A stretch of DNA of 64,000 bases from Maylandia zebra (Eukaryota > Chordata > Actinopteri > Cichliformes > Cichlidae). This document shows positions 12,473 to 64,000 of the stretch, one piece after another. The notes beneath the pieces were generated by a model. It did not search any database, had not been told where the DNA came from, and saw only the letters and a program-made list of their open reading frames with translations. Position 1 is the stretch's first letter. The number at the start of each line of letters is the position of its first letter. The translations under genes were made by a program, and so were the position numbers. Location: contig NC_135175.1 of NCBI RefSeq assembly GCF_041146795.1, positions 25,251,075 through 25,315,074 of the forward strand, written 5' to 3'.

Positions 12473-12480
12473 TATAAACT

Positions 12481-32949: not shown

Positions 32950-34176
<1,227 letters not shown>

Positions 34177-37926: not shown

Positions 37927-38831
37927 ATGGCCACAAGGAGAACAATGGCTGCTCTGTTGGTTTGGCTGTTCAGCGTCGGAGCTTTCTTCTTGTCCTCGAA
38001 TGCACAGGAACTCCCTGAAACGTATAGGAAAGGAGTAGATCTGGCCTTAGCGAAGCTCCACTCTCTCGCTGGAATCCAAGATCATTATGTCTTCTTAAGA
38101 AGTGTCTCAAAGTCGGACTATGAGGTACTGAACAGCAAATCCAGTTTTATTGCTCAATTTTTATCATTTATTTTGTAAGACCTGGTTATTAGTTTATGGT
38201 TTATGGTGTATTTGGATTAAAATCATCAGGAAATGTGCTATAAGCAACAAAGAATATGATGCTTTCATGAACTAAAACTCATCTGGGTTGCTTTGCTTCT
38301 TTCTTCTCAGATGGGTTTTGATGTAAGCTTCTTCTATCACCACTTCTACCTTAAAGCCACCACTTGTGAAAAAGGGACCACTGACTCCTCAGCGTGTGAG
38401 CCTAGAAACGACAGAGTAAGTTTTTGGCAAGTTACTCGGCTCAGGACTGTGGAATGTGAGGATAATGGCCTGCCCTAACTTGTCTATGCTGTTTTGCTCT
38501 TCTGCATTCATGCAGCCGCTGATGGACTGTGCAGTCTGCTACAAAATGCACAGAGGAGAAATCGAACCAGAGCCCAAACCGTATATTCACTGCCTCCGTA
38601 AACCGGCCATCACACAAGTCAGTATCTCCTGCTTTACCTTTAATACAGTCTCTCCCAAAGTTCTAACTGTGGCCTGTCATAAGTGATGAAACCGCACTGC
38701 AATGATAAACATGTTTATCTTTACTTGGTTATGAATGGCAGGCAATGACAGCAGGCAGACTGGAGCACTGCAATACACTGGGATACAGCAGCGGGTCAAC
38801 AGTTCTTCTGGGATCAACAGGCAAAGAGTGA
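37927..38831 (+). CDS. rarres2: Chemerin (retinoic acid receptor responder 2), copy A, six-cysteine form
   Basis: The product is a predicted secreted cystatin-fold protein. Chemerins are proproteins that act as chemoattractant, adipokine or antimicrobial factors after C-terminal cleavage. Exons are 37927-38124, 38311-38415, 38516-38617 and 38742-38831, all phase 0, giving 164 residues (human 163). A signal peptide (second Met at 37945, hydrophobic MAALLVWLFSVGAFFL) ends near SNAQ. The mature part begins ELPETYRKGVDLAL. Six cysteines have spacings 9, 10, 2, 17 and 17, against 9, 10, 2, 15 and 17 in human chemerin, which is the strongest evidence for identity. The C-terminus (GYSSGSTVLLGSTGKE) has no counterpart of the mammalian active peptide YFPGQFAFS. 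Exon 4 was placed by homology, and its acceptor (GGCAG) has a weak pyrimidine tract. A poly(A) signal lies at 39117-39122. RARRES2 and SLC4A2 are on the same human chromosome band (7q36), which supports orthology. Confidence 0.85.
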
Positions 38832-40275
38832 AAGTTTTGTTAGAAAACATGCAGCATTTAGTGTCTTTGCTTCTGAAAATATCTAAAAAACTACAATCAG
38901 ACAGGTAAATTCTTGTCAGTCTGCACTTAACCTTTCTGTAGTTTGGTAGATGTACGTATGATGTTTGCATCTTGTCTTTTGAAATGTTATCAAACTATTA
39001 TTATATATTTTATTATTCACTCTGAGAGGCATTCATCATGTGAGGAACATATTTCATTCAAATGCAACCTCCCTAGCTCCCTTGCTAAGTAAATGTATGC
39101 ATTCTTTTTATATTCTAATAAACTTTGAATCCAAAATTTTATCTGCTTTACTTCTGATTATTTTTTAACTCTCTGAAAATGGGGGGGGGGGGGGGGGGAC
39201 TGTGTATAAAAATGGCTCTAATTCATAAACAGGTAATATAAAACTTTTATTAGAGCCTCTGAATTAAAGCTAGAAGTCTGTCCTTTGATCACATCTTACT
39301 TTTATTATTTTTAAAACCCACTGTGGTGGTAACAACAGGCAAAACTATAAATATAAATAAATGCATAAATAAATTATTCTGTCAGAACAGTGACGATTAT
39401 TTCACTTTTTTCCACTCTATTGATCTGATGACATGTATTTAATCTTCTGAACTGTTCAACTAGTCATTATTCTTGATGTTAAAGTTTTGCATTTAAAACA
39501 GAGGATATTGGCAAGTTATTAAACCAGTACTTCTCAATCTTTTTAGCCCACGAGCCTTTGAAAGGTCCCTCAGTGGGGCCTCTTGTCACATGGTGTCATT
39601 TGTGGTCCAGAAAAGTTACTGGATAAAAGCAATCTAATCCCCATAAAATGTTTATAAACATTTGTTACTTCTCTCCTTTACTATATTATTATGAAGCCTC
39701 TTTGGGAACTCTGATCTATGTAGTATATACGGCTACAACAGTGTAATACCTGTGCATTTACTTTTTCTTTGGTTTAAGTAGAATGAAATGAGTTTTCTTT
39801 GCTGTGATAATTTGCTGCAATGTGTGTGACTAACAAATGTTTATGAGTTGTGGTTTCATTGAAATGAAGTTGTTACGTAAGCATCCCCAGGTGTTATGTA
39901 ACCCCATCCCTGCAGAGAATGTTTCTGCTCCTAGAGCATAAAAGCTGAAGATGGTCGTCTTTAAATGTATCATTAGATTGTCAATGAGCTAATCCACAGC
40001 TTTAATCACACTTTAGATCGTATTCTGGATAAGTTAGTTATTGTAAGAACAAATTCTTATTATGACATTGACCATGTTTTCCATCTGAAAGTTTTAGTCT
40101 GTGGCCTCCTGGGTATTACAGGAAACTGGGGGATATAAACAGTGAGTGCAGCTGGTCTGTTGTTGATAGGTATGTTTAGTTTCACTTGTCATTCCTAAAG
40201 CCATAAAAGGACTTGTTTTGAACGCGGGTCTTTATTCTCCAAGCTGCCCTGCTCTCCTCCCAGACTCAGAGAAAC
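38832..40275. other. Spacer between chemerin copies A and B
   Basis: The spacer holds the copy A 3'UTR and AATAAA (39117-39122) and a G18 run (39181-39198). About 39480-40275 is homologous to the upstream region of copy D (about 48760-49620), which marks a duplicated promoter block. A TATA-like CATAAAAGG lies at 40202-40210, and AGTTTCACTTGT starts near 40178. Confidence 0.6.
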
Positions 40276-42079
40276 ATGGCTGCCGGCTTGCTGCTTTTGG
40301 TTTGTGCAGTTGCTGTGCTGTACTCCACCAAAGCTCAGGATTCTTACAATGGTCTGCCTGAAATCTACAAGAAAGGAGTGGATCTGGCAATAAAACAGCT
40401 CAGCACCCTCGATAAGGTCCAAAACCATTATCGCTTTTTGAGAACTGTGGAGAAGTTAGAACAGGAGGTAAGCATCATTTAGATTTGGCTGTCGACTCTT
40501 TTGAAAACTCTTGACCAGAATCAGTGTTATCAGTGTTTTTGCTTAACATTCTGTATAAAAACATCAGTATCAGATCTGTAATAGGGTGAGATAGCCTTGC
40601 TGATTGCAGCAACAGTCTTCTAAAGCTCTGCTGAAGAACATAAATGTTTCTAGCTAAAACTTAAAAGACAACATTGAATTATGTTAATAAAGAGAAAAAT
40701 ACTTTAAATTCTGCTTTCAGTGCTTTCAGCCGCAGTTCTCTGTGGCTCCGGAGAATTCAGGTTCAAACTTGTTTTCCCATCTCTATTGGATTATGTGAAC
40801 TTTGAAACTTAAAACATTCACAAGCATTTAGATTTATGTGCAGAAAAACAAAACAGTTACAGTCTGCTCAAAAAATTAAAGGAACACTTTGAAAATGCAA
40901 CAAATCTGAATGGGGCAAAAATCATGTTGGATTTTTAGACTGATATCAGGGGTATGAGTGGTGTACATGTGGCTGCATGTGTAAGGTAAGATGCAGGGTG
41001 CTTTGGGGGCCAAACAGACTAAACAAAACCAACAAAGAGTGTACAGATGTGAGACTGAGAGAGTAAGAAAGATAACTGAACTGCAGCAGATTTCATCCCC
41101 GGCTCCCCAGATCTGCTGATGACTTCAGCTGAGTATTGTTGCCAAGAAGACAGTGATGTTTGCTACGTATCTACAGACACTCATAATTACGCAGGGGCTC
41201 ATACAGTAAACATGTATCTGTTTATCTGTTGATGCACGCCAAGGGGCACAGCTGCAGTGGATTTAGTAAGCCTGAAACATACTAAAGCTAAAGTGTTTCC
41301 TATTACTGTAGTCTTCTTGCTTGTTTACCACTTTCTCAGACTGTTTTTGCAATTTGGCCCATAATTGTTGCCTTCCTGTACATGACCTCTGCAGTGCTTT
41401 GCGTGAGCTGACTACTACAGAAAAATCAGCGATGAAACCTGCTAGGTTTTAGTCCATGTTGCAATTGCACCTCATAAAATTTACCTCTATTTCTTTCAGG
41501 ATGTATTTCGTGTGAAATACTTGTTCCATCACGTTCACCTGAGACCCACCAAGTGTCCGAAAGGAACAACTGAGACTGACCCTCAGAGATGCCCCTTCAG
41601 GAATGATCGAGTGAGCGAATGCTAACATTAAAAAAAAAAAGTAGTTTATTGCCTATCAGAACTAAAGCTCTTTATGTTGTCATTGCTCCACAGCCTCTGA
41701 TGGATTGTGCAATTTGCTTCAAAGCATTTGAAGACCAGATACAAGATGAACCCAATCCATATGTTCACTGTATCCAGAGACCGAGACTCACAGAGGTAAT
41801 TTTACTCATGTGTTTAAAAAAATTCTTTTTTTTTCTTACATTTTATACTTTTTGCTGCATAAACCTTTTTTTTTTTTTTTTGCTGTTGATGGCTCAAAAA
41901 CCTAGATTAGATCTGGATGGTCTGTGGTGTCTGTTTAGTTTTCTGAGTGTGAATAATCACCAGACATCTTTTTGTGTTCTATCTTTATTCAGGAGATGAA
42001 GCAAGCCAGGCTGCAGCACTACAGAGAGATGATCTACCACACGGGCTCTCCTACACTTTTGTCTCGTACTAGCGGCTAA
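40276..42079 (+). CDS. rarres2: Chemerin-like paralogue, copy B
   Basis: Four phase-0 exons, 40276-40467, 41500-41610, 41694-41795 and 41993-42079, encode 163 residues. The signal peptide is MAAGLLLLVCAVAVLYSTKAQ, followed by DSYNGLPEIYKKGVDLA. Mature cysteines are at TKC, QRC, MDC, AIC and VHC. The sixth position of copy A and human chemerin, 18 residues after VHC, is Tyr here (QHYREM), which leaves an odd number of five. The tail is YHTGSPTLLSRTSG. The poly(A) signal is AATAAA at 42269-42274. Intron 1 contains a terminal fragment of a Tc1-like transposon from 40863. The gene has all splice sites and an open frame, so it looks functional. It is likely a chemokine- or antimicrobial-type secreted protein, but the lost disulphide makes ligand activity uncertain. 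Confidence 0.85.
40863..40965 (+). mobile_element. Tc1-like transposon terminal fragment in copy B intron 1
   Basis: The fragment begins CTGCTCAAAAAATTAAAGG and AACACTTTG, the same terminal family as at 28203. It is absent from the homologous intron of copy D, so it arrived after the duplication or was lost there. Confidence 0.5.
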
Positions 42080-43100
42080 TAAGATCCTAATTGCAGCACA
42101 AATATATCCACAAAACTATAAAGGCAATCTTTAATTACCTTAGTTAAGAGGTTGCATGTATACTCATCTGTAGTGTCACTTTTTTAATATTCACTTACTC
42201 ACTTGTGATAAACACGTGAAAGGAGGCTTCTTTCCTTTTAAACTAAATGTATTCCATGTGTTACATGAAATAAAAAGAGTAAAACAGCATTGTGTGTGCA
42301 ATAAGTCACCCCTCTGTTGCATTACCCAACAACAATGCATGACTGTGTTGTTTATATTTGTTGGAAATTCAGATTCTTTACAGGCCAAATTTTATTTTCA
42401 AACAAGCAACAAGAAAGATAATTGCAGCAAAGGTAATTGCTGCAAATGTGCTTCAGCAGAATATTAAGCAAAGGCTGAGAGTACATAAGGTACATATTAG
42501 TACATACATTTGCAAAAATTTACATGCAAACTTTTTTCACTTTGTCATTTTTTTGTGTGGAATTTTGAAGTGGAAAATGTGTTCAATCCATTTTGGAATA
42601 ACGCTGTAAAATGTGGAACAAGTGACGCACTGTGAATGTTTTCTGGATGCACTATACATGGATCAACGTTTGTTAAGTGTTCATAAGGCCTATGTTTGAC
42701 TCTGAAATCTTCACGAGTTTTCATTTCATGGAAATAAAATATTTAAATGACCATCCCATTTGCTTTCCTGGCCCAAATACAACTGTTTTTTGGTGCAGGT
42801 GACAACAAAGAGCCATCCAATGAAGTCGAAACAAAAAAAATTTGTACTAATTACTGCTAAACTTTATATCCTGTCCTGGTGCCAAAAGCTTGTCACCACA
42901 TGTTGGGCTTGTTTCCAGGATCTGGATTAGTGAACCAGGACTTAATTGTAATAATGCATTAGGATGTAGTCTAACTTCTCATTTGACAACCGTGGTCTTC
43001 TGTGATATTACCCACTGAGTGTGTTTTAATCTCCTATAATAGAACTTGGTTTGCACTCAGTGCTTGGTTTTCCCTGCTCTTCTCACGCATTTGGAGAAAT
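42080..43100. other. Spacer between chemerin copies B and C
   Basis: The 3'UTR region of B (42080-42390) is homologous to the 3' flank of copy D (55344-55660). About 42775-43000 matches the region upstream of copy D (about 49230-49400). No other gene. Confidence 0.6.
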
Positions 43101-45616
43101 ATGGCTGCTGGCTTGCTGTTTTTGGTTTGTGCTGCGGCTGTGCTGTATTCTGCTGAAGCTTGGCGGCCTTACAATGGGCTGCCTGAAATCTACAAAAAAG
43201 GAGTCAATCTGGTACGGCAAGAGCTCACCACTCATTCTAAGATCCGACACCGTTATCAGTTTTTGAAAAGTGTGGACAAGTTAGAAACTGAGGTAAGCAT
43301 CTTTTTGGTTTGGATGTTTGCTCTTTCACCAACTCTTCCCCTTTTTCTTTTATTTTCTAATGAAACCTGTAGCTGCCTCACTGATGGGGTGTGATAACCT
43401 TACCGACTGTGTCAACAGTCTCCTAAAGGTCTGCATAAGAACAGAAACAGCTAAAATTTAAAAGACAAATGTTAAATCCTAATGTTAAAGAGAGAGAAAA
43501 ACACTTGAAATGTTGGTTTCAGGTAACACCGATTTGACGCACTTTCCTCTCTCTCTTCCTCTCTCCTTTTTTTTTTGCCAAATAGCAGCTGTACAGAAAA
43601 AGGTTTGATAAAACTGAAACTGTTGACAGTTTATGTTTAGATAATGAGGTGCAAAGACTGGAGTGCTATTTAACAGACTGATGTTTCCACACAGCTGTTC
43701 ATTAGAATCAAAACTGATGTGTATTTGGTGAAAACTTGCAGGATTTCACGTTTCTTCCTGCAGATAATGAATGAGTTGCACAGCCACGACAGCATAATTA
43801 GACATTAAAGTTAAGAATAGCCAAAGGTGGCAAAAGTAGAGACATTCTTTGCTTAAGTAAAAATACAGAAAAAAATACTCCAGTAAAAGATTAAATACTG
43901 AATCAACTTCTTTACTAAAGTAAAAGTGAAAAGGTCCAGGCTCCGAAATGCACTCAAAGTAAAAAAGTAAATATCTATTTTGTGTTGCCTACATTGTAGA
44001 GGGTGAATTTGACTCTACATCTAAACAGGAATGAGTACAATAAGGGGTTAAAGTGGGATTCAGCAAGTGGGGGAAACCTAAAACTGGCTGTAGGGGCTCA
44101 GTGTGAGGAAAACCAATAATTTCTTAGTGTACAGACTGTGATCAGCTGACCTGCTGCTCTTTGTGGATTTACACAGCTGAGTTCAACAAGATATAAGCTT
44201 GATGAGCTATCTTGGCTGACTGCCATTTCCCACTTTAATACTGTTACTGTAGTATACTGTATATTGTCTTTATACTATAGACAGTGTTCAGTTGTTATTA
44301 AGGTGGAATTAAATGAATTAGTCTCTGAATCATTTGATGTAGTCGGACACTGACCATGAGCATCACAGCCTCTGTGCACCGGTCAAAATCACTGTTCTAT
44401 ATTTTGAGTTCACCACGGTGATATATTTTGGAATTTGGCCCTTGACTGTTTGTCTTCCTCTGCGTGATCTCTGCACATGAAGATTCATTTGGACTTTTAT
44501 TCTCCCTCCTGGCATCCTGCACTTGGGTCCTCTTTCCAGAAACGGTCTCATATTTTAGGAGGTGGAGCCATATGGAGGCCACAGCCCCTGCAGATTAAAG
44601 TGTGACCACCACAAACAACCAAAGAAAAGCCCTGTAGGCTGTTAGTGGGCTGTGGGCATAGACCTGGAGTTACGTTGAGTAACAGTTTTTTTCTGGCAGA
44701 TTTCTTTGTGGAACTTTTTCTCTGTGGTTGCATGAATTTGAATGTGTTTACCTTATAAAAACATTTCATTAATTTAAGCATTAATGTAAGCATGCATCCA
44801 TTCTCTGGGTTGGACTCCTTTTTGCCTTCAGATGTGCTTTAAAACTTCATGGCATAGATTCAACAAGTTGCTTGAAACATTCCTCAGATATAGTGGTCCG
44901 TATTGCAGTGATGCGTCGACCACAAAATCCCAGTACACGAGTAGTTTCTTAAATAGACCAGCCTGTCTGGCACCAACAATCATGCCATGTTCAGTGTCGC
45001 TTAATTCCCCTGTCTTCTTTCTGATGCTCAATTTGAACTTTGGCAGGTTTGCTTGACCATGTCTACCTGCCCAAATCCATTGACTTGCTGCTTTTCTTTC
45101 AGAGTGGATTTGACGGGAAATACATCTACCACCACTTTCTCCTGAAACCCACCATTGCTCCACAGCTTCTGATGGATTGTGTCATTTGCTACAAAGCAAT
45201 AGCAAACCAGATAAAAGGCAAACCCGAGCCATACGTTCATTGCATCCAGAGACAGAGACTCACAGAGGTATTATTGCTCAAATGTAAATGTTTAAAAAGT
45301 GTCTTACATTTTATGTTCTTCTCCTACATTAATTTCCTAGATATTTGACCTGTTATCAAAAAAATGTTGCAATAAGTCAATCTTTTTGTCTCAAACTGCT
45401 CTTCTGATGGCCCCCAAACCATTGAGCCTGGTGAAATGGCTTCATCGGTTTGGAATAAAGTTGGATCTCTTTGTTTAGTTTCCTTTGTGTGAATAACCAA
45501 ATGTGTTTATGTGTTCTTTCTTGATTCAGGAGATGAAGAAAACCAGGTTGGGTCACTACAGAAACATGATCTACTACAGTGGCGCTCCTACACTTTTCGC
45601 TTTGACTGCCAACTAA
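43101..45616 (+). CDS. rarres2: Chemerin-like paralogue, copy C, with fused exon 2/3 and lost first disulphide
   Basis: Exons are 43101-43292, 45103-45267 and 45530-45616, giving 147 residues. The signal peptide is MAAGLLFLVCAAAVLYSAEA. The middle exon begins like exon 2 of the other copies (SGFDGKYIYHHFLLKPT), then reads IAPQ and continues as exon 3 (LLMDCVICYKA). The four residues ATTGCTCCACAG are the 3' end of the former intron 2, including its splice acceptor. A deletion therefore removed the second half of exon 2 and nearly all of intron 2, and the frame is preserved. The protein loses the KCPKG...QRC cysteine pair, and the sixth cysteine is also Tyr (GHYRNM), leaving three cysteines. 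It is either a functional variant or an early pseudogene. No stop is present. The AATAAA seen in B and D is not conserved at the same place; one at 45618-45623 lies very close to the stop. Confidence 0.75.
43820..44000. repeat. Dispersed AGTAAAAGT-rich repeat in copy C intron 1
   Basis: The words TACTCCAGTAAAAG, TAAAGTAAAAGTG and AAGTAAAAAAGTAAAT recur and resemble the ends of a widespread teleost non-autonomous DNA element. Boundaries are not clear. Confidence 0.4.
44829..45090 (-). repeat. Dispersed repeat just upstream of copy C exon 2
   Basis: Contains CCTGTCTGGCACCAACAA and ATGCCATGTTCAGTGTC and ends a few bases before the exon 2 acceptor. A related copy sits at the same place in copy D (52300-52560), so the two were probably inherited through duplication of the gene. 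The family is common in fish, but its class is not settled. Confidence 0.55.
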
Positions 45617-46567
45617 AAATAAATTCCTCATTGCAGCACAAATATATGGTTTTTTTTTAGCTGTAAGAAAATATTTTAGTTACTAAGTTACCTTAGTTAA
45701 GTGGTTGCTTGCATACTCAACTGTAGTGTCACTTTGATTGCTACTATTTACTTACTAATGATAAATGTGTTGAAGATAATGATAATTGTATGCTTTCTCT
45801 ACTACACAATGAAAAGAAAATCAGATGTGTGTGTTATTTACGAGACAGGGGAAGCTAATCTGAACATGAACGAGTGACTATCTAAATAAAACAGGACATA
45901 AGACACAGAGCAAGATGTGAAAATGTGATACAGGGAACAGACATGGAGACATGACTGACACAAAAGAATGAAACACAGAGAGATGATCAAGGGAACAGGA
46001 AGTGATAAACACAGGGACCAGGACTTGAGAGGGAAACAAGAAAACAAAAGACGCAGGGCACGGAAAGACCAAACAGAGAAGAGACAAACTGGGCACAAAG
46101 AGGTGACTAACATAATCAAACAGGAACCAACAGCTAACTCAGAGGTATTAGGAAATACTAAACTCAAGACGAATTCATAGCTAGAACATGAAAATCTCTT
46201 GATTCCAAAGAGATGAATAATAAGTCCAGAGCAAACTCAAAACATTGGGTCAGCGACCAACAATGCATTAGTGTCTGCAAGATTTCCATGATGAGACCAA
46301 AATCCTTGTCATGGATAGCTGCCCTGGTTTGCACTGGTTTGGTGTTTAACTAATTAAGACTGCAGATACTGTAATAACAATAAATCCCAGTAAATCAGAT
46401 TCCATAATAACTCAAATACTAACCCAGGTCAGGCTACCATTTCACTTACCTAAGCTGATCTGGCTCATGGCTGAATCCTGAAAGTTTTCACTTTTTAACA
46501 GCATGCCATTATTTCAGCAATTAGGTAGAACAGAACAGTAAAATATATTTTTTTAGAAAAAAGGTAA
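45617..46567. other. Spacer downstream of copy C
   Basis: About 45890-46200 is a purine-rich stretch resembling an antisense retroelement UTR (not assigned). About 46330-46567 is homologous to 55735-55980 downstream of copy D, so it marks the 3' edge of the duplicated block. Confidence 0.5.
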
Positions 46568-46572
46568 AAAAC

Positions 46573-47159
46573 TGTCATGGTCCTGAGTCTGTGGACTCAG
46601 TGGTTTTGGTTTTAATTATTATTATCTTATGTTTCGGGTTAATTCTTAAGATTTTCTTGTTCTTAGGGTTTGGCTTCTCTTTTGAGCTCTGGTGTTCGAT
46701 CCCTGTTCCCATGTCTGATGTCTTAGTGTTAAGCTCATGTCTGGGTGTAACTGTTATATTTCCTACTTTACTTTGATGGTTCCTTTCCTGTGTGTAGCTG
46801 TGTCTGGTTTTCCTTGCCCTTGTCTCTTCAGCTCTGATTCCCCCCGTCTCCCATTCCCTGATTGCTCCTGTGAATATTTAAGCCCTGTGTTTTCCTCTGC
46901 TTGTGACTGGTCCATCTGTGTTACCTCTGCGTGTTATCCTGCATATCTTTCTGCATATAATTTCTGCATTTTCTTCTGCGATTCATGGTTTCAGGTTTGT
47001 TTCTTTAGTTTTTGCCAGTTTAGGTTTATATTAGTTTCTGTCCTTCCCATCTTCGCTCAGTCTGTATTCTCACCATTTTGAAAATAAAGCTTACTCACAT
47101 CAAAGCTAGTGCCTGCATTTGAGCCCTTCGTTCACCACTCTGCCACCGCAGCTGTGACA
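46573..47159 (+). mobile_element. Solo LTR of an LTR retrotransposon
   Basis: The 587-bp unit starts TGTCATGG and ends GCTGTGACA. It is flanked by a 5-bp direct repeat, AAAAC, at 46568-46572 and 47160-47164. A TATTTAAG promoter-like box near 46875 and an AATAAA signal near 47082 are in the expected order. No internal coding part is attached. It sits inside a segment duplicated between copies C and D and is absent from the D copy, so it is younger than that duplication. The family (gypsy-like or retroviral) is not certain. Confidence 0.75.
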
Positions 47160-47164
47160 AAAAC

Positions 47165-49620
47165 TGGAAACCCCCCCCCCCCCCCAATTCTTTTACTTTA
47201 ATTGCAAATACTAAGTGCTAATTTAACGAGGTTTAGCAGCAAAAACTTGAAGTAATCATCTTTGGTTTGACTTTATCAGCCTCTGACATCATTGTGGAGG
47301 AATTTTGGCCCTGTCTTCTTTACAGTGTTGCTTTGGGTCATTGAGGTTTTGTCATAAAACGGCTGTGTGCAGGCAGGAAAAGGACCCAAACCCAAATCTC
47401 GGACCCTTCAGCAGAGACAGGCAGCTGGAAGGGCGCTCCAGAATCCCTAGCTGACGTGGCACGAGTCTGGAGAGGTTCTCCTGAACCCCCAGCGAATGAG
47501 AAAGGTTGCTGGAGGGGCTCTTCTGGGCCTCCAGCAGGAACAGGCGGCGGCGTGGGAGCCACAGAGTGCTGAGCAGGTGACTGAGCAGCAATATTCCCTC
47601 TAATCTTTCATGTGTCTGAGCGAACACACAAACTCCCTGAGCGATCCCTTGGACCACTGTGAGCAACATTGGACGTGTGCACTGTGGTCACGCCAGCATC
47701 GAATCCATCCAAGTTACATGGTTTATTAAAATAATCAAATTACAGCATTTACATTTATGTTAGACTTTTAATTAAGTGCTTTAGCCCACTTACAATGAAA
47801 ATGTAAAAAAATCTTGTTCATGACCTGTGTAGTATTTTAACACTATTGGAAGTAAAAATAACTTGAACTCCAATTTTGAAAAAACTTTAAAAAAAAAAAA
47901 AATAAAGCTCTGACTTATTATGAGTCTGTGGTCTGGGAGAGAGTCCAGTAACTCTCTGTTTGCAAAATACAGTAAATAATGACCAATGTTGGGCAATTAA
48001 TTATATAGTTACTTCTTAAAAAAGTTACTGAGTTATGCAAACAACAAAGTTTTTTGCAGCGGTTTACCTAAAAATGCAGCCAATGTGTTTTTTTTTAAAT
48101 AAACATTTCAAACTATTTACAGAACAGTAAGGCCGTGATTGACAACGTGGTCAACAAGTGTTGCCCTAATTTCATTAGGAATCGGCCTATGTATTTGGCG
48201 TCTTCTCCCTCTTCCCCTGTTTTGTCCCCACCGCATCCTCACCCCTCTTCCACGATGCTGACCTTCCATTTCTGTGTCACAGAATCGTAGAAATGGTACA
48301 CACTATGTCCTGCTCGGTTCATATATGCTTGCCAATTGAGGGTTCATGGGATTGATTGATGAGTGACTGTGAACAAGTGGCTTATCATTGATTACAACTG
48401 ATACTTCACACACCTCCTCGTCAGTGAAAGCTGAAGTTCAGCATTTAAAAACTAATTCACCAATTTTGTATGCAATGATTGAAGACTATTAGTTTTATTG
48501 GGAACGACTATTCAGCATCTAAAAGTATAGTTCATTTTGACTGACATGACATAAGCGAATGATAATGTTGTCGACGGCAGAGAATTGTATGAAAGCAACT
48601 GATACATGTCCATGAGCATTTACAATTTGTTCAGAGGAAGGAGAAATTGCTACTATGATGTGCACAAATGACTAAATGTTGTGGAGGTTGCACTAATGGC
48701 TTTGAGAATTTTCATTCTGATCTGAGAAAAGCACCAAAGCGACTGAGAAAAACTGTAAAAACACAGAGAATATTTAATCCGTGAACTTGTTAAACCAGTG
48801 TTTCCCAACCTTTTTGGTCCATCAACCCTTGAAAGGTCTCTCAGTTAGATCTCTTGTCACATGATTTCTACTGTGGCCCAAAGAGGTTACTGGAGAAAAA
48901 TAATGTAAAAATAATGTAATCCCCACAAAATGCTTACAAACTGCTGCTTTTTTTTCTCCTTAACTGTATTATCATGAAACCTTTTAAGGAACTATATTTA
49001 TAAAGTGTGTAAAACTGGCTCTGCTACACTAACAAGGACATTTTTCTGTAATACCTGTGCATTCACTTTTTTTTTTTTTTTTGATTTAAGCAGAATTTTA
49101 AGTACTTTTCTTTGGAGTACTGAGCCTTTGATTTCTTTTGCCACCAATGTCCAACAAGGATCATCATGTTTTGAAGCCACCACAAGGCCTGTTTTGTGTT
49201 CTGCTGGCAGAAATAAAGGTTTTATTTTTTTGTTGGTAAAAACAAAGAGCCATCTAATGAAATGAAAATAAAACTTTTCATCTAATTACTGCTAACCTTT
49301 AGATTTGTCCTGGTGCTAAAAGCTTGGCACCACATGCTTAGCTTGTTTCCAGGATCTGAATCAGTGAACCATGGCTTGATTGTAATAATCTAAGTCCTCT
49401 TTTGGCACTGAGCATGTTTTCTGTTGGAAAGTTTTAAGCTATGACCTCCTGAGTGTTACAGGAAAGCGGGTGGGATATTAAGTAAATAGTGAGTACGGCT
49501 GCTGGTCTGTCAATGATCAATGTTTTTAGTTTCACTTGTGATTCCCAGAGCCATAATAGGACTTGTTTTGAACTCGGGTCTTTATTCTCTAAGCTGCTCT
49601 CCTCCCAGACTCAGAGAAAA
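47165..49620. other. Spacer between copies C and D, mostly old repeats
   Basis: A C-run lies at about 47171-47185. About 47230-47340 resembles an antisense Tc1-like fragment also seen at 57790. About 47345-47600 contains a proline-rich minus-strand frame like those next to fish LTR elements (weak). About 47590-47720 and 47990-48120 are dispersed DNA repeats. About 48760-49620 is the duplicated upstream block shared with copy B. Confidence 0.4.
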
Positions 49621-52600
49621 ATGGCTGCTGGCTTGCTGCTTTTGGTTTGTGCAGTTGCTGTGCTGTACTCTGCTGAAGCTCAGGATTCTTACAATGGTCT
49701 GCCTGAAATCTACAAGAAAGGAGTGGATCTGGCAATGCAACAGCTCAGCACCCACGCTAGGGTCCAACAGCATTATCGCTTTCTGAAAACTGTGGGGAAG
49801 TTAGAAACTGAGGTAAGCATCTTTTAGCTTTAGCTCTTTTACAAGCTCTTCGGGTTTTTTTGTTTCATAATGACACCCACTTTGAAAACATGTAGCGTCA
49901 CTGATGGGGTGAGATAAAGACCACACTCTCCCAAATGTGTGCAGGATATTTTCAGCCTAAATTTAAAAGACAAACATTGAATTGTAATCTTAAAAAGAGA
50001 AAAAACCCCAAAAGTCTGCTTTCAGTTAACACTGACTTGGCACACTTTTCCTCTCTCTTGCTCCGGGAAATTCTGGCTCATACTTGTTTTCCTATCTGTA
50101 CGCAAGATGTTAAATGTCAGGGAGGAAAATGTTTCCAGCAGAGAAAAAAACAGGATGAGGTGTGTCTCTGTGAGAATGTACACATTAAAGACTGCTTTCA
50201 CTCCTTTCTTTTTCAAATATAAGGCCTTACAGAGGAGGTTTAGCTAAAACTGAAAGTGTTGAATGTGAAACTTTCAAACACTGGAGCCTTTCACAGTCTG
50301 CATACCAAAGTGTCCTTGTGCAAGATACAGAAACCCAGAGTTGCCCTATAAAGGATTCATTGTGGTGTGAATGTGTATGAATGTTAGGAAGAGGCATAGA
50401 ATAAAACATGCTTTTTTGAATAGGTATTGTTGTATAGAGTGCTCTGAGTGCTCAAATAGAGTAAAAAAGCACAATTTAAGAAACAGCCCATTTACTATTT
50501 TCAATCAAAAAAGATGTATATCTGGTAAAAAGTTGTAGGATTTCACATCAGGATGTACATGTGGGGACATGTGAATGGTGAGATGCAGGGTGCTGTGGGG
50601 AGAGAGCGAGGCAGATAACTGAACTGCAGCTGGTTTTATCTCAGATCTGCTGATCACTTCAGCTGAGTATTGCTACTGTACCTGCACGTATACTGAAGAA
50701 CAGAGAGATATTTGGTGGATATCTCCACACACTCATAATAAAGCTCTGGCTGTCACCAGCGGAAGTGCAATTTATCTGGTGATGTACTTTCAAGCCAAGA
50801 GGCTCAGCTGCAGTGGATTATCTGCTATTTCAGGCAAATATGTTCTTTATTCTCCAAACTTTGATGAAAATGAGCTTGTGCATAATAACCTGCAATAAAC
50901 AGAAAATAAAATCAGTAGTTAGGTGTTGTTAGTTGCTTTAAATTACCCATATGCTACTATTTAGTACGCCAGTTTTCCATTTCACTTGTGTTTATAACAC
51001 TCATCACGTCTTCCTCGTAGTCCTTGGTTCCCTTATGTTCCCTTTGGCCTACTTACTTGTTTATCAGTTTGCTGTTTTTGGAATTTAGTCCTTGATTGTT
51101 TGCCTTGTTCTGCATGACCTCTGCGCATGAAGATTTATTTGGACTTTTATTCTGCCCCCTGGCATCCTCACATGTGTCCTCTTTCCAGAAACTATCTCGT
51201 AATTTAGGAGGTGGAGCGAAGTGGAGGCCACAGCCCCTGCAGATTAAAGTCTGACCATCACAAACAACCAAAGAAAAGCTCTGAAGCCTGTTAGTGGGCT
51301 GTGCACACTGAACTGGAATTACATCAAGAAACTACATTTCTAACAGATTTCTCTGTGGAACCTTTTCTCTGTGGCTGCTGTTCCCACACAAACACATTAA
51401 AGATTCAGTTTATTGCATTTATTTTATGGGCTTTATCAGCCATTAGGGATGAGAAAGATGATAAGGATTTTGTTATCGAATCAATAATTTTGTTAGAATT
51501 ATTGTTACCACTTATTGATTCTCATTGGGATGGCTCTATTTTGAGAGTCACCACAATTACTAGGCAGTATATTAAAGACATTACATTTGTGCAAATTAAT
51601 TGCCTGCTGTGTAGTCGAACACAAAGCTGAAAACACAAAGCAAAAATGAAAAACAGCACACAGAGACTTTAAAACTATCAACTTTAGAAACATGAGCAGC
51701 TAGAAAAAGAGGCAGCTGACTGCTCATTGGTTTGTTACCTCTTGAAGTTCAGGGTCTGGCTGCTGGGCTGGGGTCGGCATTCAGTCAACTTTAAAATCAC
51801 TCTGGGTTTTTGGCTAGCTTAACGTTAGCATCCTGTCTGGCTAGTTCAATGTTAGCATGCTGTGTGCAGATACTTGCAAAGAGCTGAAGTTGTCCTAGCA
51901 GTATAATGCAGCTGTTTCTGTCCAAGGTGCAGTTTCCACTTAACCATCGTGCTTTCGACCTTTTCAATCCATCAATTCTCTTCCATTTATCCTTATCAGG
52001 GTTGCGGGGTTTCCAAGCTAGCATAGGGCAAGAGGAAGGTCAGCAGCCTAATGTTGGGCTAACACTGAAAGACAAACAAAACAACCCAACAACATTCACT
52101 AGGGCAATTTAGAGTCACCCAAACCCACTAACTGCATGTCTTTAAACAGTGGGAGAAAGCAAGAGTACCCGCAGAGAACCCACGCAGACATGGGGAGAAT
52201 ATGCAAAGTCCACACAGTGCTTTGTTCTTTTGATACAAGACAGGATGGATCCATGGTCTCATCTAAATGTTGAGGTTGCAGGATAGTTTCTTTTTTTCAA
52301 ACCAGTTGTTGTAAACCCTAGAGATGGTTGTGTTGGAAAATCCCAACAGATCTGCATTTTCCAAAATACTCAAAGCAGCCTGTCTGGCACCAACAACCAT
52401 GCCAGATTTAGTTTCACTTAATTCCCCTTTCTAATGCTTTATTTGAACTTTAGTAGGTTGTCTCAGCAGTGTTTACATCAATTCAGTTGCTGCCATGTGA
52501 TTGTCTGTTAAGATATTTGCATTGACAAATCAGCTGAACAGACGTATCAAACAACGTGTTTGTAGCTCCCCATAAAATTATCCTATGTTCTCTTTCAGGG

Positions 52601-55343
52601 TGGATTTGGTATGAGATACTTCTACCACCACTTCCACCTGAAACCCACCAGGTGTCCGAAAGGAACAACTGAGACTGACCCTCAGAGATGCCCCTACAGG
52701 AATGATCGAGTGAGCAAATGTGTTTTTAAAAAAGGAGTGTTAACTTTACCGTCTATCAAAGCATCAGCACCACTGTTATGCTCTTCATGTTGTCATTGCT
52801 CCACAGCCTCTGATGGATTGTGCAGTTTGCTACAAAACATCAGGAGAACAGATAGAAGCCCAACCCAACCCATACGTTCACTGTATCCAGAAACCGAGAT
52901 TCACAGAGGTAGTATTACTCATGTGTAATAAGAACATTTTGGGTTGTTGTCCTTTTCTATGTTTTTGCTTTTGATGTTCTTCTGCTCTCTATTTTACTTT
53001 TAAAACTCTGGACATTTTTTAGCTTTCCGTGTAGTTTTCTATGTGTGAAAAATCAAAAAGGCATGTTCATTTGTGGGGATTTTAACATAGATCTATTAAA
53101 TCCAAACAAGCAGAGAACGACAGAGGAATTTATTAATACAATGTATAGCTTGGGACTTTTTCCAGTGATCACTAAACCCAGCAGGATTACAGCACAGTCG
53201 GCAACCCTAATAGACAATATATTTACTAATGAAATATAAAATAGAACCATAAGTGGTCTCCTAATTAATGACATCAGTGATCATCTACCTGTTTTTATAG
53301 TGTATAACAGCAATTACAGGAAGGTTAAACAGGAAAACACAATAAAATACAAACGAGTGAGAACAGAAGAGTCAATAAACGCATTCAAAAGTGATTTACT
53401 CAAGCAAGAATGGGAGATGCTGTATAAGGAAAAAAATATTGATAAAGCTTATGAGATTTTTTTAGGAAAATTTAAACTGTTATATAATAGTCATTGCCCA
53501 GTAAAGAAATATAGTAAAAAACAAAAATATGCAGAGTGCCCATGGATTACAAAAGGATTGCAAAATGCATGTAAGAAGAAAAATACCTTATACAGAGAAT
53601 TTATAATGAACAGAAGTACAGAAGCTGAAAATAAATACAAGAAATATAAAAATAAATTAACGAGTATTTTAAGGTCATGTAAAAAGGAATACTATGAAAA
53701 ATTACTGATTATGAATAAAAATAATATTAAAGGGATCTGGAAAACATTAAATACCATCATCAAAAAGGGCTCGGGGCAGGCAGACTATCCTTCGTATTTC
53801 GCAAATAATGATAGAAATATTACTAATATGAGAGATGTGGTAAATGAGTTCAATAAATTCTTTGTAAGTGTTGGGCCAGACTTGGCTGAAACAATTCCTG
53901 ATATAACAGATTCTGTAGAGAAAGAAACTAGACTCATTGACCGCAATCCTCATTCAATGTTCTTAACGGTGGTGGAAGAAATGGAAATCATTGATATTGT
54001 TGGGAAATCACAAACAAAAAACTCTACAGACTCTGACGACATTGATATGGAAATCGTTAAGAGAGTGATAGAGGGCATTTCCAGACCCTTAACACACATT
54101 TGCAATTTGTCCTTACAAACTGGTACATTCCCAAAACAAATGAAAACAGCTAAAGTAACACCACTGTTTAAAAATGGTGACAGACACCAATTCACAAATT
54201 ATAGGCCTGTCTCTCTACTTTCTCAATTTTCAAAAATACTGGAAAAAGTCTTTAGTAATAGACTTGACAAATTTATAGATAAACACAAAATAATAACGGA
54301 TAGTCAGTATGGTTTCAGATCAAATAGATCAACATCATTGGCATTAATGGAACTGATCGAAAATATCAACAACAATATAGATAAAAGACAATGTATAGTT
54401 AGTGTATTCATTGACCTAAAAAAAGCTTTTGACACAATTAATCATGACATATTACTTGATAAACTGGAGTACTACGGCATTAGAGGAGTGGTGTTAGAAT
54501 GGGTAAAGAGTTATTTGAGAGACAGGCAGCAATTTGTGAAAATTGGGGAATATCAATCAGAGTGTATGGACATTGTTTGTGGAGTTCCGCAGGGGTCAGT
54601 ATTGGGACCAAAGCTGTTTATCCTCTATATCAATGATATATGTAGAACATCAGATATACTACAGTTTATTCTATTTGCAGATGATACAAATATTTTTTGT
54701 GCTGGAGAGAATTTACAGCAGCTTTTGGAAATTGTCACACAAGAAATGATTAAACTGAAAACATGGTTTGATAGAAATAAGCTATCATTAAATTTGGAAA
54801 AAACTACATTTATGTTATTCGGAAATTGTAAAAAAGATGCAGGAGCAAAATTATTAGTAAACAATGTTGAAATAGAGCAAGTTTCGGATACAAAATTTCT
54901 GGGTGTGATAATAGATAACAAAATCTGCTGGAAACCTCACATAAAGCATATACAAGCCAAACTGTCAAGAAACATCTCCGTACTGAGTAAAGTTAAATAT
55001 TTTTTGCCTTCCAAATCACTCCGGGTACTTTATTGTTCACTTATATTGCCATATTTGGAATACCGTGTGGAAATTTGGGGAAACATATAAAACTGCACTT
55101 CAACCAATATGTAAAATTTAAAAAAAAGCAATCAGGATGATTAATAAAGCAGGATTTAGAGACCATACTAACATCATGTTTTTGAAATTAAAAATACTGA
55201 AGTTTACAAATACAAATAATATTCACACATTCATCTTTTTGTGTTCTTTCTTGATTCAGGAGATGAAGAAAGCCAGGGAGGATCACTACAAAAAAATGGT
55301 CTACCACAGTGGCGCTCCTACACTTTTGGCTGTGAAAGCATAG
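49621..55343 (+). CDS. rarres2: Chemerin-like paralogue, copy D, with a LINE in intron 3
   Basis: Exons are 49621-49812, 52599-52709, 52807-52908 and 55260-55343, all phase 0, giving 162 residues. The signal peptide MAAGLLLLVCAVAVLYSAEAQ and the start of the mature protein are nearly identical to copy B, while the next 30 residues differ. Five mature cysteines remain (TRC, QRC, MDC, AVC, VHC), and the sixth position is Tyr (DHYKKM). The tail is YHSGAPTLLAVKA. A poly(A) signal lies at 55528-55533. Intron 3 is expanded by a same-strand LINE (about 53057-55225), but the exon 4 acceptor (TTGATTCAG) is intact. The TATA-like box of B is CATAATAGG here, which may weaken the promoter. The gene appears able to make protein. 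Confidence 0.85.
50285..50495. repeat. Dispersed repeat in copy D intron 1
   Basis: Contains CCTTGTGCAAGATACAGAAACC and GAGTGCTCTGAGTGCT, words typical of a common teleost dispersed element. A related piece lies at 34560-34730. Confidence 0.35.
51953..52225 (-). repeat. Dispersed SINE-like teleost repeat in copy D intron 1
   Basis: On the minus strand this carries the very common fish repeat words GTGGGTTCTCTGCGGGTAC and AGACATGCAGTTAG and ends in an ATGGA-type tail. Related parts appear at 15540-15590, 35385-35440 and 59050-59190. Confidence 0.55.
52300..52560 (-). repeat. Dispersed repeat upstream of copy D exon 2
   Basis: Same family and same position as 44829-45090 in copy C (CCTGTCTGGCACCAACAA). 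It supports shared ancestry of the two introns. Confidence 0.55.
53057..55225 (+). mobile_element. Truncated Jockey-group LINE in intron 3 of copy D
   Basis: A 2.2-kb sense-strand LINE with little decay. The end of the endonuclease is seen (ICGDFNIDLL, TLIDNIFTN, NDISDHLPVF), followed by RT blocks (VFIDLKKAFDTINHD, CGVPQGSVLGPKLF, active-site FADDTNIF). One in-frame TAA at 53237-53239 splits the endonuclease end from the RT, and a one-base shift near 55087 breaks the C-terminal part. The element is missing its 5' endonuclease half and its 3' end. Homologous introns of B and C lack it, so it is younger than those duplications. Confidence 0.8.
53300..55090 (+). pseudogene. LINE reverse transcriptase frame in copy D intron 3
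   Basis: An open frame of about 596 codons covers the linker and the complete RT palm, with FADD as active site, and ends at a frame-shift stop within the LPYLEYRVEIWGN block. The frame starts in mid-protein and is separated by one stop from the endonuclease remnant upstream, so it is a LINE relic rather than a host gene. Base composition is much richer in A than that of the chemerin exons. Confidence 0.8.
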
Positions 55344-56405
55344 ATTTCCCATTGCAGCTCAAATATATCCAGATAGCTATAAGGAAAGAAATCTGTAGTA
55401 ACCATTAGTTAACTGGTTAAATGCATACTCCACATTAATTTTTATCATTCACTCACTCATTTGTGATAAACGTGTGAAAGAAGTGTTTTTTTCTTGTTGA
55501 ACTCATTGCATTCCATGTGTGACATATAATAAAAAAGAGGACAAACAGCTGTGTGTGTAATAAATTACCCAACCGTTGCATTACCCAGGAAACGTAACAA
55601 TGCATTACTGTGTTGTTTAAACTTGTTAGAAATCCAGATTCTTTACAGGCCATCATAGAAACATGCCCACTAACAAGAAAAACTGTCTCATCTAATAACC
55701 ACTTTTTTGCAGGGCTTCTAAGGAACACAGCAACGTTAAGCTGGTTAAGACTGCAGATGTCACTGTAATAATACGTACAAGTAAATTTAATTCTACAATA
55801 ACCTAAATACTATTTCACGTAATTAACATGATTTTTAAATTTGGCTCAAAGTTGAATCCTAAAAGCTTTAAAGGCTGTTTGAAAACCTTGAAGATTGTTT
55901 TTTTTTCTTCACCTTTTAATATCCTGGTATTACTTGAACAACTGAGCAGAACAGAACCGGAAAATAAAAATGTAAAAAGGTAAGAATGACAACCAGGTTT
56001 TTTCCCGTTAAACTGCACAGATTACATGTATTTTTTAATGTTATAGTCTTAAGAGAAAAGAGTGAGAAGACAGAAATGGAAATTCTTAACGTAGGTAACT
56101 CAAAGTACTACTTAAAATTACTCAAAGCACAGGGCTACCTAGAAAAGGATTTGCCCTTACAGGAGAAAACTTGTTGAAGAGGTATTTCGTAAAGTCCCTG
56201 AAGGCATGACCTTGAATGCTGCATGCTGTATAATCACACTTTTCTATACAAAGATGTTGACTGATTTGCCAAGATGGAAAGGTCAGAACGATTAAAGTAT
56301 AGTCTGTCAAATTTTAAATGTCAGACGAACAAAGGCGTAAAAAGGAGGGCTTATTGCCCCTTTCTCAGCCCCCTTTTCACTTTTTGTCACCGCCCTCATC
56401 TGTGG
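55344..56405. other. 3' flank of copy D and upstream region of the lectin gene
   Basis: 55344-55660 matches the 3' flank of copy B, and 55735-55980 matches the flank of copy C. From about 56000 the sequence is unique and leads into the lectin promoter. Confidence 0.55.
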
Positions 56406-56415
56406 TATATAAAAA
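56406..56415 (+). promoter_or_regulatory. TATA box of the lectin gene
   Basis: TATATAAAAA stands about 75 bases before a strong donor (CAAGCCT/GTAAGTAT, exon end 56487) that would end a short untranslated first exon. Spacing fits transcription starting near 56437. Confidence 0.6.
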
Positions 56416-56645
56416 TGTCAATTTTACCTCTCACACATCACCTCTCTGAATTTGCTGAACTCTCACTGGTCGAAGACATTCAAGCCTGTAAGTATACTTT
56501 AAAATAAACTCATTCTGTTAAATATCTGCAAATGAAGAGAAGTTTGCAATTGTTATCAAGTTTTTGGATAAAAATGAATGTAAGAAGAACAGGTTTCATT
56601 GATGTGCACAAATAAAATTCTGACTTTGTTGTGTGTTGCAGGATC

Positions 56646-57107
56646 ATGAGCAGGAACTTCTTGTCCAAAAATGATGAGCTCCGGAGGGGAGACTACCTGG
56701 TGTCCAACAACAAGCAGTACAAAGCTGTATTTCAGGTGACTACTTCAAATTTTCTCAGTTCAGAAGCTCATAAAAGCCTTGTTTTCCAGTCATGCGTGCT
56801 GACAGTTATCTAATGTGTGATTTCTTTGTGGTTGCAGGGTGATGGCAATTTTGTCATCTATGGCTGGAAGCCTTTGTGGACTTCAGACACTGAAGGATCA
56901 GACGCCGTCCGTCTGTGCATGCAGGCTGACTGCAACCTGGTCATGTACAACAAGTGTGACACGCCTAAGTGGCACACAAACTCTGCCAACTCTGCCAAAC
57001 CTGACTGCAACATGTGCCGTCTTCAACTGACCGATGACGGCAAACTGGTGTTGAACAGAGAGTGCGAAGAAATCTGGAGCTCTGAAAAGTCCAAAGGCAT
57101 GAAGTGA
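56646..57107 (+). CDS. Lily-type (B-lectin) mannose-binding lectin
   Basis: Coding exons 56646-56735 and 56838-57107 encode 119 residues. An untranslated first exon probably ends at 56487, and the second exon begins at 56642. The protein is a single bulb-type lectin domain, a beta-prism fold that binds mannose. Sugar-binding motifs of the form QxDxNxVxY are intact at residues 30-38 (QGDGNFVIY, across the intron) and 59-67 (QADCNLVMY). The third (95-103, TDDGKLVLN) has lost the Q, N and Y positions. There are six cysteines and no signal peptide. Related lectins of fish skin and gut mucus, such as pufflectin, have this domain. Poly(A) signals are at 57288-57293 and 57294-57299. It lies 1.3 kb downstream of chemerin copy D on the same strand. 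Confidence 0.9.
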
Positions 57108-59190: not shown

Positions 59191-59530
59191 AACACATTCA
59201 TACTGTTTTATAACCTACAATTTCTAAACGCTAACAACAGTGTTGTAGTTTTCTGCAACACACAGAAACACACAAACTCAGCTGCACTAAGAAATAAACA
59301 TCATGTAATCCTGAGCTGCGTTCATAGGCAGGATATTTAAGGACATTTTGTGGCTTATCCTGGGAAGCGTTTCAAAACTGCCAAGATCCATTCTTGAATA
59401 TTACTCAGCTTTGAGATTTCAGGGCCTGTTGTTTCATATTTTGCATTTTTAGTGAAATTGGAAAAGTTTGCTGTATGACTGGGAGAGCTTGACCCAAATT
59501 AAGGGTTCAGAAACAGGAGGGATAAACTGA

Positions 59531-60252
59531 AAAGCAGCTTTATTAACTTAAACTGAGAACAAATAATCCAGATTTTCAAAAGAGCCAGCCAAACAAAGAA
59601 TATTCAAACAAAACATTCTGCGAGGACGGACAAGACAATAAGCAAACAGCAATTTTGGACTTAAATACACACAAGGCAATTAGGGAGAGAGGAAACAGCT
59701 GGGGAAAAGACACAAGTGAACAGAATCCAACAACACAACAGGACACAAAACTAAAACACCATAAAAAAAAAAAAAAGACTAAGAAGACCTTTAAGTCAAA
59801 GACTTCGTAAGATTGTAAACACTCCATCTGCATTAATCACAGACGGCGTTGTTCAAACTGCACTTTGGTGTCATTGAATTCTCTGTAAATAAAGTCTGCA
59901 ACACAGTCAGCTGTGGTCACGCTATTTATTACTACATGCAGGAGAACACATCAAAACATCAGTTTCATGGTAATGAGCGTTCTGAAACAGAAGTGGTACT
60001 CCCACTCCTTTATGCATTCCAAGGAAGAGGGAGGAAGTTACAAATTGATCATACCACACATCACGCGCCTCGCTATGAAACCTAACTGAACAATGGGTCT
60101 ACTGTTTTACGCCCTTTGCGTTATCAGCACCAGTAAAGGGAGTTGTCTTCTCCAACTGCTGAGGCTGAAATAGGTTCATGTAGTTTTAGAAACTTTCACT
60201 GAACAGTCTATCGCAGTGTCACAACTAAGCATATGCACTTAAATACTTTAAA
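59531..60252 (-). mobile_element. LTR-like fragment, copy 1
   Basis: On the minus strand, a TATTTAAG box and an AATAAAG signal lie in LTR order. Both ends of the piece (AAGCAGCTTTATTAAC and AATACTTTAAA) are shared with copy 2 at 63019-63638, while the middle part differs. No coding part was seen. Family not assigned; an old LTR retroelement is the simplest reading. Confidence 0.4.
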
Positions 60253-60905
60253 TGAATATAATAGAAATTTTCTATTACATCCCACCTTTGATTATTTTAT
60301 AAAATCACCAAAACAAAATTTCCAATTCAACACCATTCAGCATCAACAGCATACTCAGAGAGGTTCACTATGTGCATCATTCTAAAGTGTTAGAGGGAAA
60401 ATTTTGCATGTTCATCCTCACTCTCACTAACCTCTTTTCTTCATCTAAGTCTAACATTTGTATGCAAAATGCAACCAATAAATTTTTTTATTTTTTTATT
60501 GCTACAACACTTTTAAACTCAGGACTTACCACCTGATGTGATCAGTGTCCCAGATAAGTGAATTTATAAGCCCATTGAAATCCGGAGAATCACACTTGAT
60601 TGTTTTCAATAAGAATATTTTATAGCGCTTTAGTATCAATTTTGCAGGCCTGCTGAAAAGAGAGCTGATTATTAAATCAACAACACACAAAATATCATTC
60701 CCTGGAGGGATGACACCTGACAGGTTTGATTTAAGTGCACTGTTTAGGACATGTCCAAGCATAAAACTGCCTTTCTCTTGGAAAGAGGAAACAAACCAAA
60801 ACTAGAAAAATTTGCATTTCCTGCGAAAATGCTGTGTGGATGCCTTAACGCTGAAGATGTCTGCTGAAAAATGCTGAAAAAATTGAAAAAAAAAAAAAGC
60901 AAAGA
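60253..60905. other. No gene recognised
   Basis: AT-rich spacer; no exon or known repeat seen. Confidence 0.35.
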
Positions 60906-60979
60906 ATGTTGCTCTGAGCAGGATTCGAACCTGGCCCTTCTGGTACTCAAGGAAGGTTCTCATCTCACTGCGCCAACAT
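60906..60979 (-). repeat. tRNA-like module 1 (74 nt)
   Basis: The minus strand carries A-box-like TGGCGCAGTGAGATGAG and B-box GGTTCGAATCC at tRNA spacing. It has an anticodon-stem-like pair CCTTC/GAAGG and closes with ATGTTG/CAACAT ends. The cloverleaf is not clean (oversized loop, poor acceptor stem), so it is a tRNA-derived repeat rather than a working tRNA. Confidence 0.55.
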
Positions 60980-61017
60980 CTTTCTGACAACGAAGAGGTG
61001 GAGAGACTGATAATTGT

Positions 61018-61279
61018 GCTGAAATGAGCAGAAGAGGCTGAGAATTGTGCTGATAAGAGGTGAATAAGAAGAATTTCTGCTGAAAAGAGTTTAATCAGCA
61101 CAATTTCTGCTGAAAAGAGTTGAATGAGCAGAATTTCTGCTGAAAAGAGGTTTTTTGCTGAAAACAGCTTAAAAAGCTTGGATTTGTGCTGAAAACATCA
61201 GAAAAAACTGAAAATTGTGCTGATAAGCGGTGAAAAAGCTGAAATTTGTGTTGAAAAGAGTTAAAAAAGTTTAACTGTT
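61018..61279. repeat. 30-31-bp minisatellite, about eight units
   Basis: Units begin GCTGAAAAGAG or close variants and end AATTTCT or AATTTGT. Lengths read as 31, 30, 30, 30, 49, 31, 31 and 30 bases. The middle units are most alike. The array lies between the two tRNA-like modules. Confidence 0.75.
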
Positions 61280-61290
61280 AAGTGAAAGAA

Positions 61291-61365
61291 ATGTTGCCAC
61301 AACCTGGATTTGAACCCGGGCCTCCCTCTCTGAGAACGGCTGCTTATCTCACTGAGCTAAAACAT
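61291..61365 (-). repeat. tRNA-like module 2 (75 nt)
   Basis: The minus strand carries A-box-like TTAGCTCAGTGAGATAAGC and B-box-like GGGTTCAAATCC and closes with ATGTT/AACAT. It is a diverged relative of module 1 in the same orientation. Confidence 0.55.

Positions 61366-62439: not shown

Positions 62440-64000
<1,561 letters not shown>

Follow-up and report, generated by a model that had tools for sequence, protein, structure and literature searches.

Mammals have a single chemerin gene (RARRES2), which provides one ligand with a fixed activating peptide. The chemerin core carries six cysteines that form three disulfides, the human protein signals through the nonapeptide YFPGQFAFS near its C-terminus, with a short prosegment after it, and CMKLR1 and GPR1 are the chemerin receptors. 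The chemerin core is described as structurally similar to cathelicidins and cystatins (PMC9405667), and fish lily-type lectins as having two QxDxNxVxY motifs plus a degenerate third repeat, with no predicted signal peptide in OppLTL (PMC9549603) and a non-classical secretion route suggested for pufflectin (PMC6100423).

Relatives of both kinds of protein are encoded side by side in the cichlid Maylandia zebra. Within the 64,000 nucleotides analysed here (the window; contig NC_135175.1, C9:25251075-25315074 of a 962-Mb, 63-contig assembly), four rarres2-like genes (R1 to R4) and a lily-type lectin gene (L1) lie head-to-tail on the plus strand, downstream of slc4a2. In the reading that we prefer, with a probability of roughly 0.48, they would represent a birth-and-death tandem array of secreted chemerin-type ligands with shifted targets, with two lily-type lectins after it. 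What is new here is above all the loss of cysteines in three of the copies, an exon fusion in R3, tails rewritten at the one rarres2 locus that was detected, and receptor-type genes that occur together with extra receptor arrays.

Four unequal rarres2-like genes

Gene models were made by eye and script from the DNA; positions are those of the window.

37945-38124, 38311-38415, 38516-38617 and 38742-38831, plus strand: R1, rarres2-like, 158 amino acids; further in-frame ATG upstream at 37927; six cysteines with chemerin-like spacing
40276-40467, 41500-41610, 41694-41795 and 41993-42079, plus strand: R2, rarres2-like, 163 amino acids; lacks the sixth chemerin cysteine
43101-43292, 45103-45267 (exons 2 and 3 fused) and 45530-45616, plus strand: R3, rarres2-like, 147 amino acids; lacks chemerin cysteines 1, 2 and 6
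49621-49812, 52599-52709, 52807-52908 and 55260-55343, plus strand: R4, rarres2-like, 162 amino acids; lacks the sixth chemerin cysteine
53240-55087, plus strand: retrotransposon piece with a reverse-transcriptase frame (RVT_1, E 1.4e-38) in the last intron of R4
56646-56735 and 56838-57107 (coding exons), plus strand: L1, lily-type (B-type) mannose-binding lectin, 119 amino acids; QxDxNxVxY motif intact in two repeats and degenerate in the third; six cysteines

R1, R2 and R4 have four coding exons each, R3 has three and L1 two. All 12 introns (three each in R1, R2 and R4, two in R3, one in L1) are GT-AG and of phase 0, and each of the five genes has an open frame. R1 to R4 look like working or recently working genes. 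The original prediction, made from the letters of this DNA, had placed five plus-strand genes here, four of them rarres2-like and the fifth a lily-type lectin, with intact splice sites and frames, and the five models reproduce this. Its span, 37927-57107, is also exact: 37927 is the in-frame ATG six codons before the ATG at 37945, and 57107 is the end of the L1 stop. As to the signal peptides that it called intact, hydrophobic N-termini can be seen by eye in all four R1-R4 translations, and no signal peptide can be seen in L1, so that the description could hold for R1-R4 only.

Chemerin was the best PDB match of R1 (E 0.0022), of a profile of the four sequences (E 0.015) and of R4 (E 0.035, weak alone); with the profile, cystatin C came third (E 0.69). 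Against human chemerin, R1 scored 13.6 and R4 9.0 standard deviations (z) above shuffled copies, neither score being reached by any of 1000 shuffles. The strongest support for R1 as a chemerin comes from the cysteine spacing, which is 10/11/3/18/18 in R1 and 10/11/3/16/18 in the human protein. The PDB matches, shuffle scores and cysteine spacing together suggest that R1 can be read as a chemerin and R2-R4 as R1 offshoots, R2 and R3 probably belonging to the family through their kinship to R1 and R4 in the alignment. Pfam assigned no family to R1, gave a chance-level match for R3, and matched R2 (16.7 bits, E 0.0092) and R4 (16.2 bits, E 0.013) to Cathelicidins below the curated cut-off of 21; thus none of the four has a Cathelicidins match above cut-off and R1 and R3 have none at all. 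The weak matches of R2 and R4 are a likeness to the cathelicidins, whereas the PDB searches favour chemerin for R1, R4 and the profile.

Compared with mammalian chemerin, all four translations share the hydrophobic N-terminus, kinship over a cystatin-like core and the Tyr and Gly of the tail, and R1 also has the six cysteines with matching spacing. They differ in forming four tandem copies rather than one, in the missing cysteines of R2-R4, in the changed nonapeptide of every copy and in a non-cationic stretch where human chemerin has its antibacterial segment V66-P85. The rarres2 array of the original prediction is supported, chemerin being the top PDB match of R1 and R4, but to speak of four chemerins overstates the case because chemerin cysteines are missing from R2-R4 and the known agonist tail is found in no copy.

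Nor are the copies equivalent. After a signal peptide assumed to be 20 residues long, mature R1 has the six chemerin cysteines, R2 and R4 have five and R3 three, leaving an odd number in each of R2, R3 and R4; in the alignment, Tyr stands in R2 and R4 at the position of the sixth cysteine of R1. On the same assumption the mature net charge is -1 for R1, +3 for R2, +10 for R3 and +7 for R4 (human chemerin, +5). R3 is not a full copy. Alignment of R3, R4 and R2 revealed a deletion of ~145 bp relative to R4, in which the last part of exon 2 was lost together with the donor site and the greater part of intron 2. Exons 2 and 3 are thereby joined in frame, with former intron sequence now read as I-A-P-Q. 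The last intron of R4 keeps its splice sites despite the retrotransposon piece; the matching intron of R2 is 197 bp long.

When R4 was compared with the whole genome, all 14 exon matches (E <= 1) fell inside the array, which excludes chance, and the same was true of the 12 matches of R1 (E <= 10). The array is therefore the only rarres2 locus detected with these two queries, which a very diverged copy could escape. At E <= 0.01, no further chemerin exon was found in the 39.9 kb that follow the window, and neither a chemerin nor a lectin exon in the 20 kb before it (a 74-base gap excepted).

Rewritten tails and receptor-type genes

Aligned with YFPGQFAFS, the four tails read YSSGSTVLL, YHTGSPTLL, YYSGAPTLF and YHSGAPTLL, the alignment having a gap just before the tail. 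The agonist nonapeptide is thus in none of R1-R4: Tyr-1 and Gly-4 are kept, and Phe-8 is replaced by Leu in all four. A degenerate coding pattern for YFPGQxAF had no match in the genome; a tail split by an intron or otherwise altered would escape it. The change at position 8 has been studied in the human peptide, where [Leu8]-chemerin-9 was reported to be fully active at GPR1, while at CMKLR1 it recruited no arrestin and signalled through G protein with a 20-fold loss (PMC8429170); that work covers the Leu8 change and not the other changes in the fish tails.

An antimicrobial-peptide genome screen gave chemerin a score of 0 in 11 of 11 ray-finned fishes and of 3 in the coelacanth (PMC8533284, Table 2). 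The zero scores fit strong divergence of teleost chemerins, and the screen may miss diverged copies; flounder scored 0 there, yet a flounder rarres2 gene is reported elsewhere (PMC10417057). The coelacanth score suggests that multiple chemerin-like genes may exist outside teleosts too.

A genome search with human CMKLR1, in which 110 of 654 candidates were scored and receptor counts are lower bounds, returned at least 24 matches at E <= 1e-40. A gene at C12:20.78 Mb groups with human CMKLR1 (support 99/97 and 98/96 in two trees) and one at C16:19.84 Mb with human GPR1 (100/99 and 99/98). C11 carries at least 15 more CMKLR1-like receptors, which share 40-52% identity with the human protein; 14 of them (L050-L053, L056 and L058-L066) form two tandem groups.

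C11:17836953-17936650: tandem group of seven CMKLR1-like genes; one further relative at C11:7927644
C11:18463411-18574600: tandem group of seven CMKLR1-like genes

The trees (26/28 rows each) both carried long-branch warnings and left several forks without resolution, and they did not settle how the C11 receptors branch relative to CMKLR1 and GPR1. Of four loci on C14 (three) and C21 (one), two were left out of the first tree and two misplaced in it, which was corrected in the second; L058 and L059 are absent from the second tree and were placed by the first with the first C11 group. Expansion of these receptors is not in itself a new observation, since duplicated fish receptors near CMKLR1 and GPR33 are listed as orphans in PMC6504862.

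These data suggest a mechanism. R1 is an old copy with the full chemerin cysteine pattern, and R2-R4 are younger, fast-changing copies, best seen as birth-and-death products, of which R3 may already be decaying. The four proteins would be secreted, with a folded cystatin-like core, and the C-terminal tail, whether trimmed or left as it is, would be recognised by receptors of the CMKLR1/GPR1 group. At human GPR1 [Leu8]-chemerin-9 remains fully active, whereas at CMKLR1 it no longer recruits arrestin and has lost most of its G-protein potency; the fish tails would therefore more likely act on GPR1-type or C11 CMKLR1-like receptors than on CMKLR1 in the mammalian manner. The lectins probably have a role of their own, as mannose binders in mucus. 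The function proposed here is drawn from gene sequences, splice sites and frames.

Gene ages, the lectin pair and competing explanations

The coding sequences of R2-R4 differ pairwise by 14-23% (R2/R4, 13.7%). Between R1 and R2-R4 the synonymous divergence (dS) is 1.7-2.1, which is saturated, and the ratio of nonsynonymous to synonymous divergence (dN/dS) is 0.21-0.23; by these values R1 is far older than the R2-R4 split. The differences also answer the misassembly that the original prediction had named as grounds for refutation, as one gene has not been assembled several times. A falsely multiplied assembly is unlikely given the divergence of R2-R4, their unequal intron lengths, the absence of N from the window and a contig of 37.9 Mb; further near-identical copies could still have been collapsed into one.

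Between R2 and R4 there is one indel (3 bases, in frame) in 489 coding bases, compared with 14 events in 719 aligned non-coding bases from six alignable flank and intron pieces. The coding expectation is 9.5 (Poisson P about 0.0008, a rough figure since some gaps lie at piece ends). The R2 and R4 frames thus look held by selection, which argues against plain decay of these two genes.

A protein query for the lectin found five matches in the whole genome, namely the two exons of L1, the two exons of a second gene, L2, and one match on C13. L2 (116 amino acids, coding span C9:25325638-25326081) begins 10.6 kb past the end of the window and is missing from the original prediction, which had identified L1; it was the only additional chemerin or lectin match beyond 58 kb in the window plus 39.9 kb downstream (E <= 0.01). 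Both L2 and the C13 gene have open spliced frames, and L1 and L2 are separated by a dS of 0.11 and a dN of 0.04. L1 matched Pfam B_lectin with E 1.4e-5 and 25.9 bits, below the cut-off of 32.4, and an NCBIfam lectin-like bacteriocin model with E 1.1e-20, also below cut-off; its closest PDB entries are bacterial and plant B-type lectins, down to E 5e-21. Like pufflectin, SsLTL and OppLTL, it has no signal peptide by eye, two mannose-binding motifs (QGDGNFVIY and QADCNLVMY) and a degenerate third repeat. It differs in adjoining rarres2 genes and, with L2, in having six cysteines, compared with one in the C13 copy. L1 would be an ordinary lily-type lectin with extra cysteines, and its link to rarres2 is one of adjacency only.

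Several results weigh against an array of ligands with shifted targets. Among R2, R3 and R4, dN/dS is 0.80-1.09 (bootstrap ranges 0.52-2.08; dS 0.14-0.34), which fits relaxed or diversifying evolution. For R3 and R4 the indel comparison shows no shortage in coding sequence, with 2 events observed where 3.6 would be expected (P(<=2) 0.30), and the two genes differ at least as much in their coding sequence (19%) as in the two longer non-coding pieces that can be aligned (15-16%). Stop-free frames are weak evidence in any case, being retained by 28% of simulated copies after 30 neutral substitutions and 10% after 60. Taken alone, R2 and R3 are weak matches to human chemerin, their scores being reached by 10 and 17 of 1000 shuffles. 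Apart from position 8, the fish tails also depart from the agonist peptide at Phe-2, Pro-3 and Phe-6, and scrambled or shortened chemerin peptides were reported to be inactive (PMC8429170), so that receptor activation may be lost altogether. On the receptor side, the tree program flagged the join of GPR1 with the C16 gene in the second tree as a possible long-branch artefact. Pocket residues 4.67/4.69 in the second extracellular loop are K/H in the CMKLR1-type gene and M/L in the GPR1-type gene, neither matching the human residues (A/L in CMKLR1, V/F in GPR1); such differences would leave room for changed ligands and prove nothing.

Some of these points agree with R2-R4, or R3 at least, being decaying duplicates of little function beside R1 as the only working rarres2. 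The high dN/dS, the unpaired cysteines left in R2-R4 by the missing ones, the deletion in R3 with its lack of an indel deficit against R4, and the retrotransposon piece in R4 all favour decay. Every splice site and frame survives, however, and R2/R4 coding indels are about tenfold rarer than in the adjoining non-coding DNA; the R3 fusion is in frame as well, although this is expected for one deletion in three. As an account of the array, decay is doubtful. A switch to direct, cathelicidin-like antimicrobial action, in which the core or peptides from it hit microbes and the tail is free to drift, would agree with the sub-cut-off Cathelicidins matches of R2 and R4, with the cationic mature R2, R3 and R4, and with a report that human V66-P85 is antibacterial independently of tail cleavage (PMC9405667). 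But net charge over the stretch aligned with V66-P85 is 0 to +1, where human chemerin has +5, R3 retains roughly two thirds of that stretch, R1 is slightly acidic, and no chemerin-type antimicrobial peptide was scored in the 11 ray-finned fishes screened (PMC8533284). This switch is rather unlikely. The original prediction had proposed that all five genes belong to a mucosal defence cluster, which would be co-regulated. Chemerins and lectins do adjoin on one strand with two lectins in the neighbourhood, lily-type lectins are described as mucosal in other fish (PMC6100423, PMC9549603) and flounder rarres2 as a core gene of an infection-time module (PMC10417057). However, 17.5 kb separates L1 from L2, a stretch in which retrotransposon-like frames can be seen by eye, the third lectin maps to C13, a contig without matches in the slc4a2-exon and chemerin searches, and adjacency may be chance; a single cluster seems very unlikely.

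A further, unlikely reading is that ligand and receptor multiplied together, the array with its rewritten tails feeding the at least 15 CMKLR1-like receptors of C11 (two groups of seven and an outlier). Where mammals have one ligand and a few receptors, this fish would then use a many-to-many chemoattractant code. The genes that group with CMKLR1 and GPR1 are still present and every rarres2 tail differs, which makes the fish a natural test of what these receptors need in chemerin, and the array is a source of candidate ligands for the orphan receptors near CMKLR1 that are listed from fish (PMC6504862). Should R1 be the only working copy, the locus would be a plain case of birth and death in an immune gene.

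Surrounding sequence

Two features lie upstream of the array in the window.

26281-26493, plus strand: slc4a2 exon stretch (flanking gene); HCO3_cotransp; anion exchange protein 2 (AE2), E 5.2e-32
33877-34176, plus strand: CDK1-like fragment, single open frame, located between slc4a2 and R1; CDK1 positions about 39-138, E 1.3e-51

The best match of the exon at ~26.3 kb was human AE2, ahead of AE3 and AE1, in agreement with slc4a2 as the predicted neighbour. SLC4A2 lies on the same human chromosome arm as RARRES2. The CDK1-like fragment is probably a retrocopy remnant. A block predating the teleost genome duplication was considered and rejected, as no paralogous block was found: the closest second copy of the slc4a2 exon (77%) is on C18 and the third lectin on C13, with chemerin matches on neither. 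A tandem rarres2 array with lectin neighbours was not named in the literature surveyed, which comprised titles and abstract openings with most subscription journals missing; the array may well be annotated already in NCBI or Ensembl.

Elsewhere in the window, long retrotransposon reverse-transcriptase frames of 1047 and 674 amino acids from stop to stop occupy 936-4076 and 10524-12545, both on the minus strand. A tRNA-like impression near 61 kb was discarded, there being no tRNA gene anywhere in the window. Degenerate short units around 'gctgaaaag' form a run seen by eye at 60880-61420, and a sequence duplicated between 59530-60252 and 63017-63639 aligns in two blocks, with 91% and 96% identity, beside other repeats.

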